The notes below the pieces were generated by a model. The model searched no databases, was not told the DNA's origin, and saw only the letters and a list, made by a program, of their open reading frames with translations. The position numbers and the translations under genes are program-made. From Thiomargarita sp. (GTDB lineage: Bacteria; Pseudomonadota; Gammaproteobacteria; Beggiatoales; Beggiatoaceae), in the NCBI GenBank assembly GCA_020721045.1, contig DYNN01000013.1:6781-45393 (forward strand): DNA of 38,613 bases, written 5' to 3'. Shown piece by piece: positions 15,389 to 23,370 of the stretch; the first letter of the stretch is position 1, and each line of letters opens with the position of its first letter.

Positions 15389-15850
15389 ATGAAAATATGG
15401 GTAGATGCAGACGCTTGTCCGACAGTGATTAGAGATATTTTATTTAGAGCAGCCAAGCGCACCGGCATAGAAATAATATTTGTTGCCAATCAACCTGTGC
15501 GTATACCGCCGTTACCCTGTATCAAATTTCTTCAAGTTTCACTGGGTTTTGATGTAGCCGATAAAGAGATAGTGAAAAGACTCAGTCCGGGTGATTTAGT
15601 AATTACCGCTGATATTCCTTTAGCCGCAGATGTGATTGAAAAAGGCGGATATGCCCTAAATCCGCGCGGCGAACTCTACTCCACTGACAATATCAGTGCG
15701 CGATTAACAATGAGAGATTTCATGGATTCCCTACGTGCCAGCGGCATCGATACCGGTGGTCCTGCCCCATTAAATCAAAACGATAGAAAATTATTTGCTA
15801 ATCAATTAGATAAACTACTTACACACTACATAAAAAATCAAAATTGTTAA
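15389..15850 (+). CDS. yaiI: YaiI/YqxD family protein (DUF188)
   Basis: A 153-residue protein with the family's invariant opening [10 protein letters not shown] followed by [12 protein letters not shown], a central [20 protein letters not shown] block, and the [19 protein letters not shown] segment. The fold is related to PIN/NYN nucleases, with conserved acidic residues at the N-terminus and in the TADIPLA block, but the physiological substrate is not established. Length is normal. Its stop codon overlaps by four bases the stop of the converging kinase gene, leaving no room for a separate terminator between the two. Confidence 0.92.
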
Positions 15851-18312
15851 AAAGAAGGTGTAAACAGAATATTTTGAGAATCAGTTTTTTTAGGTAAGCT
15901 TGTTGTCTCAGATTCACGATTTGGCATTGTTTTTATTGCTAAATTTTCATTGATTTCCTGTTGCAATTTTAATAAATTACTATTTGCAGGATAAAGCATC
16001 AATCCCTTAGTGACCGTAGATAAACTAGCAATTAAATCCTTTGCTTCCTGTTGTTTTTTAGCTAATTGTTCATAATGTTGCGCAATTTGCCGTAATCCCG
16101 ACAGTGCCGGTTGATTTTTGCCATCCAATTGTAAAACATTTTGATATAAATAATATGCCGCATCAAATTGTGCTTCTTTCAACTGTTGTGCGGCAGTTGC
16201 CAACAACTTTGTAATTTTATCATTCACTTTTTCCACCGGTTTTGCAATAACAGGTACCATTTTAACTGGCGGTTGAGTCGTAGCATGGTTTGATTGCGCA
16301 ATCATTTTCTTTTGTAACGCTAATAAATTTACATGATTGGGTGAAACTTTCAATCCTTTTTCAATTAATGTTAAACTTTTTTCCAAACTAACAGACTCAC
16401 TACGCGCTAATTTTTCATATAAATCAGCTATTTTTACCAATCCATTTTGTGCTTGTACATGATTGGGTGCTAACGCTAAAATTTGTTGATATGTTTCATG
16501 CGCACAGTCACCGATAGGTTCAGTCAAATGCAGAGCGGTTATTTGCTGTTCAGCTTTTTCTAATAATTTCTTGATATTATTTTGAGCAATGGGGGCAGAC
16601 GGTAGTGGTAACGGTAATTTTGTAGTCAATAATTGTTGTTTTAAATCAATCAATTGTTGAGATGTTGGAAATAATAATAACGCCTGATTAAGTAAACTCG
16701 TCTGTTGTGATATATCATTTGATTGAGCATTAACAAGTTGAACATATTGTGTTTCTAATTGTTGCAATGCGTCAATTGCCAGTAAATTATTGGATTCTAA
16801 TGATAAAATTTGTTGATAAATATGATAAGCCGCTTCCAATTGATCGATCTGAAAATACTGTGTTGCCTGTTCAATTAATTGATTAATTTGAGAATTATGT
16901 AATTGTTGTTGTATTTGTTGAGTTTGTAAAGTATGTTGTAATTCTTGTAATTCTTTATCAAATTTGTTTAATTGTAAACCTTGTGTAACCCATTGTAATC
17001 CTTTGGTAAAATCACCAATTTGTTCCGCTTGTTTTGCTTGTTGGATGTGATAATGAATAATTTGATTAATTCCTTGTTTTGCATCGGGATTATATAAATC
17101 AATCGCTAAAATTTGTTGATAAGTTTCATAAACATTATTTCTTATTGGTGTAGTGATTTGCTGATTTAACCACTGCATCTTTGCTTTTTCTAACAAGGGT
17201 AAAATCGGTGGTTTAATAAAATAACTCAATATTATCATTGATAACGTTAAAGTAGTGATAATCGCCAACACTGTCATTTTAATTGGATAAGATGAGAATT
17301 GAGTGCGTCGATTGGGAATTAGCACTGTGACAGATTGTCGACCTTCCAACGCAGCTTTAAAATCTTGCACAGTTTGAAAACGTTCTTCTAATTTGACGGC
17401 TAACGCAGTGAAAATGGCGGTACTGACAGTTTCAGAAATCGAGATATCTGGTTGTTCTATCAAAGGAATCAGGGTATCATCACAAAATCTATCCGTAGCT
17501 GCAGGTGGTAATTTTCCGCTGATTAACAAATATAACAAAGCACCACACGCATAAATATCTGTCCATGAACCAATTTTCCCCTTTCCTGAATACTGTTCTA
17601 ACGGTGAATAACCATGTTTAAGCACCAAATCTAAACTACGACTGTTTTCTCCCACTACATGTCGCGCTGCACCAAAATCAATTAAAATTGGAATTCCAGT
17701 TGGCAATAATCGAATATTCTGTGGCGAAATGTCACGATGATAAATCTGTTGTGCATGAACTTCTGTCAAAGCGTCCAAGATAGGAAAGATGATGGTTAGG
17801 GCTTCATCAACAGTTAAACAACAGCCTAAGCGACTGAGTAATTCAGTCAAATTTTCGCCTTCCAAATATTCCATAACCATATAAGCAGTTTTATTTTCTT
17901 CAAAAAAATTAATCACACGTACAATATTGGGATGGTCAAATTTGGCTAGATTACGTGCTTCATCGATAAATAATTGTAATCCTTGATTAAATGCTGCTTC
18001 TTGTTTTTTAAGCGGAACGATATGAGTTGTTTGAAAATCACGTGTTGCCAATGCTGACGGGAGAAATTCTTTAATCGCAACTTTCTTTTGCAACCATTTA
18101 TCAAAACCAATATAGGTGATACCAAAACCACCCTGTCCTAAAGCTTTGCCAATAATATATTGATTTTTTAATAAAATATGCGGTTTTAGATAGAGTGGAT
18201 GTGGGGTATATTGCCGTTCATTGTAACCACAAATAGGACATTCTGGACGTAGTGATTTAGACTGCATACAATTGATACAAAAGCGATTTAAATCTAAAAT
18301 TTCATCCTTCAT
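15847..18312 (-). CDS. Membrane Ser/Thr protein kinase with zinc ribbon and TPR-like repeats
   Basis: An 821-residue Hanks-type kinase. Residues 12-28 form a Cys4 ribbon (CINC and CPIC). The kinase domain follows at about 50-325: glycine loop GQGGFG (59-64), Lys81 in VAIKE, catalytic loop HRDISPQN (192-199), DFG at 212-214, and a YSPLEQY substrate-binding segment. A single membrane helix is at about 346-366, so the catalytic part should be cytoplasmic and the tail periplasmic. The tail holds four repeats of about 100 residues, each opening with a YQQIL-x-L/I-like TPR helix followed by a second TPR-like pair (QGL or KGL-x-x-x-P). The start is the ATG of MKDEI; the frame extends 31 residues further into the pilC-like gene but loses family resemblance. 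It lies 26 nt after that gene and third behind spoT. Substrates are unknown. Confidence 0.93.
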
Positions 18313-18338
18313 GAGTTCTTTCACCGTTTTGTCCTTAG

Positions 18339-19547
18339 CTAACGCGCACCGGCAAAGGTTGTAATTAAATCGTAAATAGGTCCCAACACCGATATCATCA
18401 CCCAACCCAATAATAATCCTAAAATAACAGTCATGATAGGTTCGATGAGAGTTTGTATTTTTTCAATTGCTTCTTTCACTTCTCGATTGTAAAAATAACT
18501 GGCATTGCGCAGTGCAGCATCTAATTCACCTGTCGTTTCACCGATTTTAACCATGCGCAAAATTAAAGGTGGAAATAGGCGTACTTTTTCAAAACTTTCA
18601 CTGATACTAATTCCTTCTGCAATATAATCATGAACTTGTTTAATCGCTTCTTCAATCACTTTGTTATCGGCAAATGTTTGACTGATCACTAAACTATCCA
18701 AAATAGTGATGCCGGAACTATATAATAAAGCGAAAAAGTTGGTAAAGCGTGCGAGAATAATTTTTTCTAAAATAGGACCGATCAACCAGATTTTTAAAAT
18801 AAGGCGATCAGTGAAAAAATGGAAACTGGGGCTGATTTTAATCAGAGTTTTTATCGAAAAAAATAGAATAATGGGGAAAATAAGGATAATATACCAATAA
18901 TTGACAAATAGGTGTGAAATAAAAATAAGTGCTTGAGTATGTATGGGCAGTTCTGCATTAACACTTTTAACAAAAGTAATAAGTTGCGGCACAAGGTATA
19001 ACATGAGAAAAAATAACACACCTAAAATGACAACTCCCATAAATATCGGATACATCAGTAATTTTTTGGTTTTAGCAATTATTTCATCATGCCATTTTAA
19101 TGTTTCGGTTAAATGTTGGAAAATAGTGCTTAAATTACCACTTTCTTCGCCTGCACGAATCAAACTTACAAAAACTTGATTAAAAATATCAGGAAAATGT
19201 GCCATGGCTTCTGACAGCTTTTCACCTCCTTCTATATTGGTAATAAGGCTTGATGAGATTTCGCGCAGACGTGATGGAGGTAAACTGTCTCGCAAATCAC
19301 TCAGCCCTTCTAATAAAGGCACGCCTGCACGTGTCAAAGTTTCCATGTAAAAACAAAAATTTATCAGATCATGACGAGAAACTTTACCCACATAAGTATA
19401 GCGTGTTTTCTGGGTACGATAATGGATTAAATCTAAACCCATTCGTTCAAGTCGTGTCTCTAAATCGCTGATATTATTAGCATCGAGCTGACCTTGAACG
19501 ATATTGCCGTGATTGTCCATCGCTCGATAAAAAAATTGCTTGGACAT
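18339..19547 (-). CDS. Type II secretion/type IV pilus F-family inner-membrane protein
   Basis: A 402-residue polytopic protein of the GspF/PilC family, the inner-membrane platform that works with a PilB/GspE-type ATPase to assemble pilins or pseudopilins. It shows the short N-terminal FFYRAMDNHG-like domain and two T2SSF modules of about 120 residues (near 65-190 and 265-390), each with a GVPLLEGL or GITILDSL motif and a RAGEESGNL or KIGETTGEL motif. Three membrane helices lie near 165-190, 215-235 and 370-390. Length is standard. None of the usual partners (ATPase, peptidase, pilins) adjoin it; spoT lies 27 nt upstream and a Ser/Thr kinase 26 nt downstream. It could serve the prepilin-like protein at 5.7 kb or a complete pilus encoded elsewhere. 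Whether it is PilC, MshG-like or GspF cannot be decided from sequence alone. Confidence 0.92.
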   Translation of the reverse strand: MSKQFFYRAMDNHGNIVQGQLDANNISDLETRLERMGLDLIHYRTQKTRYTYVGKVSRHDLINFCFYMETLTRAGVPLLEGLSDLRDSLPPSRLREISSSLITNIEGGEKLSEAMAHFPDIFNQVFVSLIRAGEESGNLSTIFQHLTETLKWHDEIIAKTKKLLMYPIFMGVVILGVLFFLMLYLVPQLITFVKSVNAELPIHTQALIFISHLFVNYWYIILIFPIILFFSIKTLIKISPSFHFFTDRLILKIWLIGPILEKIILARFTNFFALLYSSGITILDSLVISQTFADNKVIEEAIKQVHDYIAEGISISESFEKVRLFPPLILRMVKIGETTGELDAALRNASYFYNREVKEAIEKIQTLIEPIMTVILGLLLGWVMISVLGPIYDLITTFAGAR

Positions 19548-19574: not shown

Positions 19575-21755
19575 TTAATTTTTGGTTCTTTGAATGCGTG
19601 TTACTTCATTTAAACGTTTGATATGGCGCATAATTTCTGCCAAATGGGTTCTATTTTTTACCCATAATGATAATTTTAACATACTGGTAATGCCGTCACG
19701 ATTATCATTTGATACACTTTCTATATTACTATTCATATCTGTAATTGCTGTAGCAACTTTTGCCAATACACCGCGTTGATTGCGCACATCAATACGAATG
19801 TCAACTAAAAATTCTCGATTCACTTCTTGTTCCCAAGCGACAGATAGCCATTTTTCTGGAGAATAACGTTGATTTAACAATTGCTTACAGTTTAAAGTGT
19901 GAATCACAATGCCTCTATCGGCACTGACAAAACCGACAATTTCATCACCGGGGATAGGGCGACAACAACGTGAAAAAGTAACAACCGTACCTTCAGTTCC
20001 TTTAATAATCAAATTGTTAGCGCGAGATTCTTCGGTGTGTTCGTAAGTGTGATCAAATTGCCGTGCAATCACTAAAGCCATTATATTACCCAAACCTACA
20101 TTGGCTAGTAATTGATTCATATCGCTTAATTTGAAAATATTAATTAATTGGGTGCGCTGTTCCTCATTTAATTTATCAACACTAATATTGTAGTGACTTA
20201 ATTCTTTGTCTAACATGCGTTTTCCTAAGAGGATTGCATCTTCATGTTTCAAATTTTTCAAGAAGTTACGAATATGATTACGGGCGCGCGCTGTTACCGC
20301 AAAGTCTAACCAGCGCGGACTAGGGCGAGCCAATTCGGCAACAATAATTTCTACGGTTTGTCCACTGATCAAACGTGTTGATAAGCTCATGTATTGACTA
20401 TCAATTTTAGCACCAATAGCATGATTGCCAATGTCGCTGTGAATCGCATAGGCAAAATCTAACGCGGTTGCATCTTTCGGTAATTGCTTAATTTTTCCTT
20501 TAGGCGTAAAAACATAGACTTCATTAGGAAATAAATTTCGTTTAAATTGATCAAAAAAGTCCGCTGAGTCGTTGATATCTTGTGGTAATTCTAGTAAATT
20601 TTTGATCCATTCGCGTGTACGTTGGCGTGTATGGTTGAGTAAATCGGTATTGTTGTTACTGTCTGATTTGCCTTTAAATAGTAATGCGCCATATGCCACA
20701 ATGCCAAATTCTGCTTGCTCGTGCATGTTGGCGGTACGAATTTGTATTTCTAAAGGTACTGCGTAAGGGCTAATGAGTAGTGTATGTAGTGATTGATAAC
20801 CATTGAGTTTGGGAATCGCAATGTAATCGTGAAAACTACCGTCAATCGGTTTATATAAGTTGTGTACGATGCCCAAAATACGGTAGCATTGGTCAACAGA
20901 TTCTTCCATTGAATCGATAACAATTTGAAAAGAATAGAGTTTAGTTGCTTCGTTGAAAGTAGGGCGTTTGTTCAGCAATTCATCTTTCTTTTTTTCGCGC
21001 ATTTTATAATAAATACTGTAAACATGGCGTTCACGACGAAATACTTTGGCATTGATATTTCGTTGTTTTAATTTTTGTTGAATACTGTTTTGAATCGTAG
21101 AAAAGTGTTCGATGCGTTGTTGGCTGTGACAAAGTGTGGTTAATCTATGCAAAATCACTTTGTAGCGCAGTGGATAGAGTGCGGCAAAACAAAGGTCTTC
21201 TAGCTGAATGCGCATATTATTCATGCCAAGGCGACTGGCAAGTGGTGCGTAAATTTCTAGAGTTTCTTTTGCAATACGACGGCGGCTGGCGGATTTCATG
21301 ACGTTGAGGGTGCGCATGTTATGCAAACGATCGGCTAATTTTACAATAATGACACGAATGTCTTTTGTCATAGCCATCAACATTTTACGAAAGCTTGCCA
21401 TTTTTACCAATTCACGATTGCCACCTTCCATCAAGGTTAATTTACTGACTCCATCGACTAATTCAGCCACTTGCTCATTAAATTCTATTGCCAATTCTTC
21501 TTTGGAAATACCTGTATCTTCAATCACATCGTGCAGTAAAGCAGCGGATAAGGTTGTCACATCTAAGCGCATATTTGCTAGAATGTGAGTAACTGTCAAT
21601 GGATGTTGAATGTAGGGTTCTCCGGAAATGCGGAATTGTCCTTGATGCGCATTGGCACTGAATGCGTAAGCGTGACGTATTTGGTCAATTTGTTGTGGCT
21701 CAAGATAAGTCACGAGTAGTTCGCACAATTCATCAATTTGGATACAAGCAGGCAT
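19575..21755 (-). CDS. spoT: SpoT-type (p)ppGpp hydrolase with a degenerate synthetase domain
   Basis: A 726-residue long RSH protein controlling the alarmone (p)ppGpp. Order: HD hydrolase about 20-200 with His51, His75-Asp76 and Glu79-Asp80 (LHDVIEDT) and KLADRLHNMRTL, all intact; synthetase about 225-370; TGS about 400-465 (VYVFTPKGKIKQLP); conserved-Cys region with CCRPIPGDEIVGF; C-terminal ACT. The synthetase is unusual. Where SpoT has Asp-Ile-Tyr-Ala-Phe-Arg, this protein has Lys272-Leu-Tyr-Ser-Phe-Gln277, losing the catalytic Asp and conserved Arg. The RXKD motif reads SFHD (307-310), and the AAHWAYK motif reads VAYGALLFK. NGYQSLHT and EIQIRT remain. From family knowledge this predicts hydrolase activity without synthesis. 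It heads a minus-strand run with the PilC-like and kinase genes. The ATG start gives the normal family N-terminus. Confidence 0.93.
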   Translation of the reverse strand: MPACIQIDELCELLVTYLEPQQIDQIRHAYAFSANAHQGQFRISGEPYIQHPLTVTHILANMRLDVTTLSAALLHDVIEDTGISKEELAIEFNEQVAELVDGVSKLTLMEGGNRELVKMASFRKMLMAMTKDIRVIIVKLADRLHNMRTLNVMKSASRRRIAKETLEIYAPLASRLGMNNMRIQLEDLCFAALYPLRYKVILHRLTTLCHSQQRIEHFSTIQNSIQQKLKQRNINAKVFRRERHVYSIYYKMREKKKDELLNKRPTFNEATKLYSFQIVIDSMEESVDQCYRILGIVHNLYKPIDGSFHDYIAIPKLNGYQSLHTLLISPYAVPLEIQIRTANMHEQAEFGIVAYGALLFKGKSDSNNNTDLLNHTRQRTREWIKNLLELPQDINDSADFFDQFKRNLFPNEVYVFTPKGKIKQLPKDATALDFAYAIHSDIGNHAIGAKIDSQYMSLSTRLISGQTVEIIVAELARPSPRWLDFAVTARARNHIRNFLKNLKHEDAILLGKRMLDKELSHYNISVDKLNEEQRTQLINIFKLSDMNQLLANVGLGNIMALVIARQFDHTYEHTEESRANNLIIKGTEGTVVTFSRCCRPIPGDEIVGFVSADRGIVIHTLNCKQLLNQRYSPEKWLSVAWEQEVNREFLVDIRIDVRNQRGVLAKVATAITDMNSNIESVSNDNRDGITSMLKLSLWVKNRTHLAEIMRHIKRLNEVTRIQRTKN

Positions 21756-21843
21756 GACTATTTCAGAAGATCAGTAATAAATGTGTGTATGAAATAGCTA
21801 TACAAGGTAAAAGAGAGACTGAAGTTATCTCAACCTGATTTTC

Positions 21844-21928
21844 GTAGGGTGTATAAGCAAAGCGTCATACACCGATTTTTGGAACTTTCGCACTTCTTGG
21901 TGCATGACGCTTAGCTTATGCACCCTAC
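21844..21928. repeat. Palindromic repeat element with 30-bp arms
   Basis: The arm at 21844-21873 begins GTAGGGTGTATAAGC, and the arm at about 21898-21928 is its near-perfect inverse (ending GCTTATGCACCCTAC), with roughly 27 of 30 positions pairing around a 24-nt loop. It could fold into a long hairpin. It lies in the 430-bp gap between divergent spoT and the aminotransferase gene and carries no ORF. Its form fits a non-autonomous dispersed repeat. The rest of the gap is AT-rich upstream sequence with no other element I can support. Confidence 0.75.
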
Positions 21929-22185
21929 AAACTATAAAACTATAAACAATTCATCTGGCTATTATTTTACTTATATCGAACTCATGTTAAATAGCCAATT
22001 TGGATACTAAAAACATTCTTATCTATTGTCAAGAGTTTTCTAAATTATTATGAATTTTGTTTGGAAAAGCAGTCCTGACAAAATTCAATATTTTTCTATT
22101 CCAGTAGATAAGCAAATTCTGTATCATATCAAGAAAAAATGCCGTAAACCAACTGACTAACACTTCTATATTAAGGAAACTGACT

Positions 22186-23370
22186 GTGAGTTTGCAATTA
22201 TCCGATCGTGTACAATCAATTAAACCGTCGCCTACGTTGGCTGTGACGGCACGTGCTGCTGAAATGAAGGCGGCTGGGCATGATATTATTGGATTAGGAG
22301 CGGGCGAACCTGATTTTGATACGCCACGCCATATTAAGGATGCTGGGATTGCAGCAATAGAAAAGGGGCAGACTAAATACACACCAGTAGGTGGTACGGC
22401 TTCTTTAAAACAAGCGATTATTGAAAAGTTTGCTAAAGAAAATGAACTAAAATACACCGCTAAACAAATTTTAGTTTCTTGTGGGGGCAAACAAAGTTTT
22501 TATAATCTTGCTCAAGCCTTGTTAAATCCCGGTGATGAGGTCATTATTCCTGCACCTTACTGGGTTTCTTATCCTGATATGGTTTTGCTTGCCAGTGCAA
22601 CTCCGGTGATTGTCAGCGCGGGAATTGAGCAAAATTTTAAAATTACTGCTGAACAGTTAGAGGCAGCAATTACAGATAAAACTCGTTTATTTGTCGTCAA
22701 CAGTCCATCAAATCCAACGGGTGTGAATTATACTCCACATGAACTTGCCTTATTGGGAGAAGTTTTGAAAAAATACCCGAATATTGTAGTGGCAACTGAT
22801 GACATGTACGAACACATTTTATGGACAGGCAAGCCGTTTAAAAATATTTTGAATACAACACCTGAGTTAACCGATCGTACCATGGTATTAAATGGTGTTT
22901 CAAAGGCTTATGCGATGACGGGATGGCGAATTGGGTATGCGGCGGGTCCTGAATCTTTAATTAAAGCAATGGAAAATATTCAATCACAAAGCACTTCCAA
23001 TCCTACCTCTATTTCACAGTATGCGGCTGAGGCGGCATTAAAAGGCGATCAATCCTATATTGCTGAAAGTACAAGTGTTTTTAAAGAACGACATGATTTT
23101 GTTCTTGATAGCTTACGCAAAATTAATGGAGTTGTTTGTTCGCCCGCTGACGGGACTTTTTATATTTTCCCTGCTTTACAAGCGGTGATGGATCGCTTAA
23201 ATATTAAAACTGATGTTGAATTGAGTGAATTTTTGATTGAGAAAGCGGGTGTTGCCGTTGTACCCGGCTCTGCTTTTGGAGCACCGGGTTATATTCGTAT
23301 TTCTTTTGCAACTAGCATGGAAAATCTGCAAAAAGCAATGGAACGTTTGCAAAATACTTTGAATTCCTAA
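22186..23370 (+). CDS. aspC: Aspartate-type class I aminotransferase
   Basis: A 394-residue PLP enzyme of fold type I, expected to interconvert aspartate and oxaloacetate using 2-oxoglutarate/glutamate. Motifs are GLGAGEPDFDTP near the N-terminus (substrate carboxylate binding), VNSPSNPTG (PLP-binding Asn), ATDDMYEHI (PLP nitrogen-binding Asp), NGVSKAYAMTGWRIGY with the Schiff-base Lys, and the C-terminal RISFATS with the substrate-binding Arg. It starts at GTG, supported by AAGGA eight nt upstream and by the conserved N-terminus. The sequence is of the Thermus/Bacillus-like subgroup rather than the E. coli AspC subgroup, so exact substrate range (aspartate, possibly prephenate or other amino acids) is uncertain. 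It stands alone, divergent from spoT and convergent with tolB. Confidence 0.92.
   Translation: MSLQLSDRVQSIKPSPTLAVTARAAEMKAAGHDIIGLGAGEPDFDTPRHIKDAGIAAIEKGQTKYTPVGGTASLKQAIIEKFAKENELKYTAKQILVSCGGKQSFYNLAQALLNPGDEVIIPAPYWVSYPDMVLLASATPVIVSAGIEQNFKITAEQLEAAITDKTRLFVVNSPSNPTGVNYTPHELALLGEVLKKYPNIVVATDDMYEHILWTGKPFKNILNTTPELTDRTMVLNGVSKAYAMTGWRIGYAAGPESLIKAMENIQSQSTSNPTSISQYAAEAALKGDQSYIAESTSVFKERHDFVLDSLRKINGVVCSPADGTFYIFPALQAVMDRLNIKTDVELSEFLIEKAGVAVVPGSAFGAPGYIRISFATSMENLQKAMERLQNTLNS

Follow-up and report, generated by a model that had tools for sequence, protein, structure and literature searches.

The SpoT protein encoded in the 38,613 nt stretch of Thiomargarita sp. DNA analyzed here (the window) is most probably a hydrolase-only SpoT (SpoT[Hs]), in which a pseudo-synthetase domain would be kept as a regulatory or scaffold domain. 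Judging from sequence comparison, we put the probability of this reading at about 0.87. SpoT normally both synthesises and degrades ppGpp, an alarm signal of starvation. The hydrolase residues were intact and the catalytic residues of the synthetase were lost, as in SpoT[Hs] proteins. A hydrolase-only function had been proposed by a first, sequence-only reading of this DNA, and the residues of the protein, its relatives and the presence of RelA in the genome all argue for it.

The open reading frame from 21755 to 19575 on the minus strand encodes 726 aa and represents a full-length SpoT. The gene and two of its C-terminal domains were located as follows:

19575..21755, minus strand: spoT, long RSH protein of 726 aa (Pfam, TIGR00691 and identity to Beggiatoaceae SpoTs)
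20343..20519, minus strand: TGS domain, residues 413-471 (Pfam)
19587..19820, minus strand: ACT domain, residues 646-723 (Pfam)

The domain order HD-SYNTH-TGS-helical-ZFD-ACT was that of long RSH (RelA/SpoT) proteins, with Pfam matches to HD_4, RelA_SpoT, TGS, RelA_AH_RIS and ACT_4 in this order and a TIGR00691 score of 672 bits (cut-off 499). Orthology to gammaproteobacterial SpoT and an intact HDxxED motif identified the protein as SpoT as against RelA. The SpoT model PRK11092 scored 787 bits versus 398 bits for the RelA model, full-length identity to other Beggiatoaceae members reached up to 60%, the protein grouped with SpoTs in a tree built from SpoT rows only, and the hydrolase motif HDVIED was present. 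PRK11092 is a bifunctional equivalog model, and the window SpoT stayed below its curated cut-off (787 versus 947 bits). Proteins from E. coli and from MAGs of Pseudomonas and Ectothiorhodospiraceae (one each) passed this cut-off, and that of a Halomonas fell slightly short of it (937 bits); the cut-off alone is therefore not diagnostic of activity. The AlphaFold model of the window SpoT had a mean pLDDT of 82 and a pTM of 0.60, with unreliable relative placement of the domains. The best Foldseek match of the full-length model was A. baumannii SpoT (7QPR).

Most Beggiatoaceae members and outgroups carry rpoZ directly upstream of spoT. In the genome studied here spoT (window 19575-22186) is no longer located behind rpoZ, which is found on contig C4 (G000:C4:11819-11974). 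A gspF/pilC-like gene starts 27 bases after spoT and is possibly co-transcribed; this linkage was tested across Beggiatoaceae and was not general. The 3' end of the gspF-like gene is overlapped by a serine/threonine protein kinase-like gene (window 15847-18405, 852 aa), the product of which has a C-terminal half that is long and repeat-like.

The hydrolase domain showed the same catalytic and metal-binding positions as E. coli SpoT:

21171..21689, minus strand: (p)ppGpp hydrolase (HD) domain, residues 23-195, intact (catalytic and metal positions as in E. coli SpoT)
21516..21533, minus strand: HDxxED motif, H75-D80 (alignment)
21318..21341, minus strand: KLADRLHN motif, residues 139-146 (alignment)

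All examined residues (R42, Y48, H51, H75-D76, E79-D80, D142, R143 and N146) were present, which extends the earlier statement that the hydrolase His, HD and ED residues are kept. Retained hydrolysis would be expected from these residues.

The synthetase domain was altered at several sites:

20673..21053, minus strand: pseudo-synthetase domain, residues 235-361 (PF04607 94-98 bits; fold retained in the model)
20943..21002, minus strand: expanded loop ahead of the catalytic site, residues 252-271 (20 residues versus 12 in other SpoTs)
20940..20942, minus strand: Lys272 replacing the Mg-binding catalytic Asp, D259 of E. coli or D272 of RelTt (alignment)
20925..20927, minus strand: Gln277 in place of Arg, E. 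coli R264 or RelTt R277, five residues further on (alignment; role of R277 from PMC9974481)
20826..20837, minus strand: SFHD in place of RXKD, residues 307-310, Asp310 kept (alignment)
20781..20831, minus strand: guanine-binding G-loop HDYIAIPKLNGYQSLHT, residues 309-325, conserved (alignment)
20733..20750, minus strand: EIQIRT, E336-T341, second acidic residue kept (alignment)
20673..20699, minus strand: VAYGALLFK in place of AAHWAYK (alignment)

The E. coli SpoT and RelA reference sequences were taken from the MG1655 record. NEATKLYSFQIVID of the window SpoT aligned gap-free with HSIMDIYAFRVIVN of E. coli SpoT, and the strand YSFQIVID showed no gaps relative to YAFRVIVN. K272 therefore corresponds to D259 and Q277 to R264. 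The sequence-only reading had placed Lys272 at the D259 site and had noted the SFHD loop and the altered AAHWAYK segment, in agreement with the alignment. It had also named a shifted position of the catalytic Asp as an argument against itself; we rejected such a shift, since the strand following the site aligned gap-free. Overlooked in that reading were the family-wide changes, the insertion ahead of the site, and the intact guanine loop together with E336. R241, K251, D310, K316, N318, Y320, Q321, H324, E336, Q338 and R340 were kept in the window SpoT. In RelTt numbering the protein carries D272K and R277Q and retains the equivalents of Q347 and Y329. The side of the active site on which R249, R277, Y329, D272 and Q347 of Thermus Rel lie was taken from PMC9974481; these residues correspond to E. 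coli positions 236, 264, 303, 259 and 321, as matched by spacing.

The window SpoT was compared to those of 32 other genomes in its GTDB family (24 other genera) and to one fragment. The set from outside the family (n = 89) comprised 15 proteins from other families of the same class, E. coli SpoT, and 73 named gamma- and betaproteobacterial proteins among the matches listed, which were chosen by peptide patterns including part of the G-loop and the HD motif and are thus biased toward those motifs, not toward the Asp. Asp in the D259 column was absent in 29 of 33 Beggiatoaceae SpoTs versus 0 of 89 elsewhere in Gamma- and Betaproteobacteria (73 of these among the matches listed). The 33 proteins, including that of the window, had Asn (17), Asp (4) or one of K, Q, E, H, R, S, T and G (12) in this column. 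Fisher's test gave p = 4e-24 for Asp in 89/89 outside versus 4/33 inside the family, a value which overstates the independent evidence due to shared ancestry. An insertion of 6-9 residues ahead of the catalytic site was found in 28 of 34 members. In E. coli numbering, replacements also affected R236 (11 of 33), Q321 (8) and E319 (12), the last being the second acidic residue, which is kept as E336 in the window SpoT. The loss noted in the window protein was thus conserved in relatives, a point that the sequence-only reading had wanted checked. A sequencing or assembly error could be suspected, as the genome is a draft of 253 contigs. The open frame is intact, however, and the Asp is also absent in 28 other members, among them G010 and G028 of one genus, assembled in 3 and 1 contigs, so that the probability of such an error is practically negligible.

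The loss of synthetase residues in Beggiatoaceae SpoTs is not universal. In the SpoT of G011 alone, K238R is the single change among the twelve listed synthetase residues; the AAHWxYK segment is missing there as well (MAKGFLQ instead). In the three other proteins with Asp (G014, G030 and G006) R236 and E319 are absent. A tree built without the synthetase columns, by a quick method and with many weak forks, required at least 4 changes between Asp and not-Asp; the loss was therefore repeated within Beggiatoaceae or reversed in places. The G011 protein (L013) with its Asp259 is nested among Asn-bearing relatives, by retention or reversion.

SYNTH was the domain with a clear drop in conservation in Beggiatoaceae SpoT. 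Its mean pairwise identity was 0.496 within the family and 0.625 outside; the corresponding values were 0.663 and 0.626 for HD, 0.484 and 0.530 for Core, 0.599 and 0.591 for TGS, and 0.452 and 0.362 for ACT. Of the positions that are near-invariant outside Beggiatoaceae, 98% were kept in HD and 78% in SYNTH. The catalytic positions are freely variable (N, K, Q, E, H, R, S, T or G), as would be the case if the domain were a decaying remnant without function. For congeneric pairs, though, dN/dS of SYNTH was 0.06-0.26 and similar to that of HD, with some dS values near saturation. The domain is thus under purifying selection and not decaying freely. The frame is also open in all members, and the fold is confidently predicted: the N-terminal half of the model superposed on S. 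aureus Rel with 2.1 A over 352 columns (TM 0.94 by target). We consider a functionless remnant very unlikely.

Conservation within SYNTH differed between the two sides of the active site. The ATP/metal-side positions 236, 238, 246, 259, 264, 319 and 321 were kept in 12-79% of Beggiatoaceae SpoTs, versus 97-100% for the guanine-loop positions D293, N301, Y303, Q304 and H307 (E. coli numbering). For positions other than those matched to Thermus Rel, the side was assigned by us. This pattern would fit a pseudo-synthetase that acts as a guanine-nucleotide sensor, the G-loop binding GDP or GTP without reaction and the bound nucleotide tuning the hydrolase. The pseudo-synthetase of A. baumannii SpoT, which is regulatory, lacks the Tyr of the G-loop and shows no GDP binding (PMC9974481), and a sensor function of the intact loop would be consistent with this as well. 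On the other hand, folding or contacts to Core or TGS may be the reason why the loop is kept, and some basal members (G006, G009, G014, G016 and G030) have altered loops (NHY, NQY, NQS). We therefore regard the sensor function as a tentative suggestion; it refines the hydrolase-only explanation and is not opposed to it. If it is true, the ATP/metal half decays freely and the guanine half is held across Beggiatoaceae SpoTs, and hydrolysis of ppGpp would be adjusted directly by the cell's level of guanine nucleotides.

A hydrolase-only SpoT calls for a separate synthetase, as the sequence-only reading had pointed out, and the lack of any other synthetase in the genome would have spoken against it. 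Exactly two domains of PF04607 are encoded in the genome (99.9% complete), that of the window SpoT and that of a 740-aa RelA on contig C19, which is the only other synthetase domain. The synthetase motifs of this RelA are intact (GRPKH, FDVRAVRV, NGYQSLHT, EVQIRT, ASHWRYK) and its hydrolase is degenerate. As expected, this state would fit a division of labour with SpoT. The RelAs of 20 further Beggiatoaceae were likewise synthetase-intact (21/21 including the one on C19). Across 42 Beggiatoaceae genomes PF04607 scored 136-157 bits for full RelA versus 58-125 bits for long SpoT without overlap, the window SpoT reaching 94-98 bits, and a RelA match was present in every genome where SpoT was read.

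These data also bear on a weakly working synthetase, in which E336 on its own, or else a residue of the expanded loop, would hold the metal. E336, R241, Q338 and the whole G-loop are kept, and the loop ahead of the site is expanded and charged, which leaves a small probability of residual or altered synthesis by the window SpoT. However, the alignment register is set by a strand without gaps, the second acidic residue, E319, has been replaced in 12 of 33 relatives, a RelA match accompanies every SpoT read in the family, and D259N alone abolishes synthetase activity of E. coli SpoT (PMC11796413). We consider such an activity unlikely. This laboratory change is the commonest natural state (Asn) in Beggiatoaceae SpoTs.

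The RelAs of G007, G032 and G002 (L054, L055 and L057) largely keep the HD motif (e.g., ILHDVVEDK, KLADRLDN), which is less degenerate there than in E. coli RelA and is lost in the RelA on C19. An extra PF04607 domain (45-70 bits) was found in ORFs of 353-377 aa in four Beggiatoaceae genomes (G025:C87, G060:C662, G017:C284 and G032:C241); these are possibly small alarmone synthetases or related proteins. Contig C230 of the genome studied here encodes a MESH1-like small hydrolase of 184 aa with the HD, ED and D/N residues present, and 30 of 36 Beggiatoaceae genomes have such a protein. Its gene overlaps the end of a gspE/pilB-like ATPase gene (L074:1485-3748, G000:C230), a linkage that was tested across Beggiatoaceae and was not general.

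Hydrolase-only SpoT was previously described in Moraxellaceae (PMC9974481, PMC3153485). In A. baumannii SpoT the same Asp is lost along with other residues, and the enzyme is synthetase-dead (PMC9974481). This protein (PDB 7QPR) shares with the window SpoT the long RSH architecture, intact HD residues, and loss of the SYNTH Asp and of the Arg five residues after it. The A. baumannii set of RelA, SpoT[Hs] and the separate small alarmone hydrolase SahA (PMC12742793) is also the same as the RelA, SpoT and MESH1-like hydrolase found here. In contrast, the guanine loop (PKxNGYQSLHT) and Q338 are lost in A. baumannii and kept in the window SpoT, whose G-loop is conserved in sequence, unlike the degenerate one of Moraxellaceae-type pseudo-SYNTH domains. 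The loop ahead of the site has 12 residues in A. baumannii and 20 here, and the window SpoT is much less divergent (end branch of 0.48 versus 3.16, the latter so long that the tree alone cannot place the A. baumannii protein). Common descent with the Moraxellaceae SpoT was considered and is unlikely: the Pseudomonas relatives of Moraxellaceae have the Asp, and A. baumannii SpoT is without the loop insertion. The Beggiatoaceae loss thus appears to be a second origin by convergence. The Moraxellaceae analogy of the sequence-only reading holds for function; in relation it would be one of convergence, and the window SpoT, with its guanine loop kept, is not a Moraxellaceae protein.

Bifunctional E. 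coli SpoT[HS] agrees with the window SpoT in domain order, in the hydrolase residues and in having TGS and ACT domains. It differs by D259, the catalytic Asp of bifunctional SpoTs (Lys272 here), by R264 (replaced here), and by RXKD and AAHWAYK (altered here). RelA[hS] is likewise a long RSH protein in which one of the two activities is gone and the inactive domain persists as a regulator; it lost the hydrolase, whereas the window SpoT lost synthetase residues. In the literature searched, which included few subscription papers and may miss an earlier report, hydrolase-only SpoT was described for Moraxellaceae only and for no Beggiatoaceae. What appears new about this known kind of protein is the lineage, Beggiatoaceae, and the split condition of the site.

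For the hydrolase-only SpoT of the window we propose the following function. The Mn-dependent HD domain would cleave the 3'-pyrophosphate off (p)ppGpp that stems from RelA, which would be the only synthetase of the cell and its sole (p)ppGpp source. With Lys for the Mg-binding Asp and Gln for the adenine-contacting Arg, the pseudo-synthetase would be unable to use ATP as a pyrophosphate donor. Since the domain is folded in the model and under purifying selection, it would most likely serve as a scaffold or as an allosteric relay that connects the hydrolase with the sensor domains of the C-terminus, a role that was shown for the pseudo-synthetase of Acinetobacter SpoT (PMC9974481).

In these bacteria (p)ppGpp could rise only via RelA or reduced hydrolysis, and models of SpoT-dependent synthesis from E. 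coli (carbon and fatty-acid starvation) would therefore not be transferable. Annotations naming these SpoTs 'bifunctional' would be wrong. With their graded decay and one member with the Asp, the Beggiatoaceae SpoTs offer comparative material on why a dead synthetase domain persists. Loss of the SpoT synthetase was so far described for one family, Moraxellaceae, and a second, apparently separate family-wide loss would make full division of labour between RelA and SpoT a recurrent evolutionary outcome.
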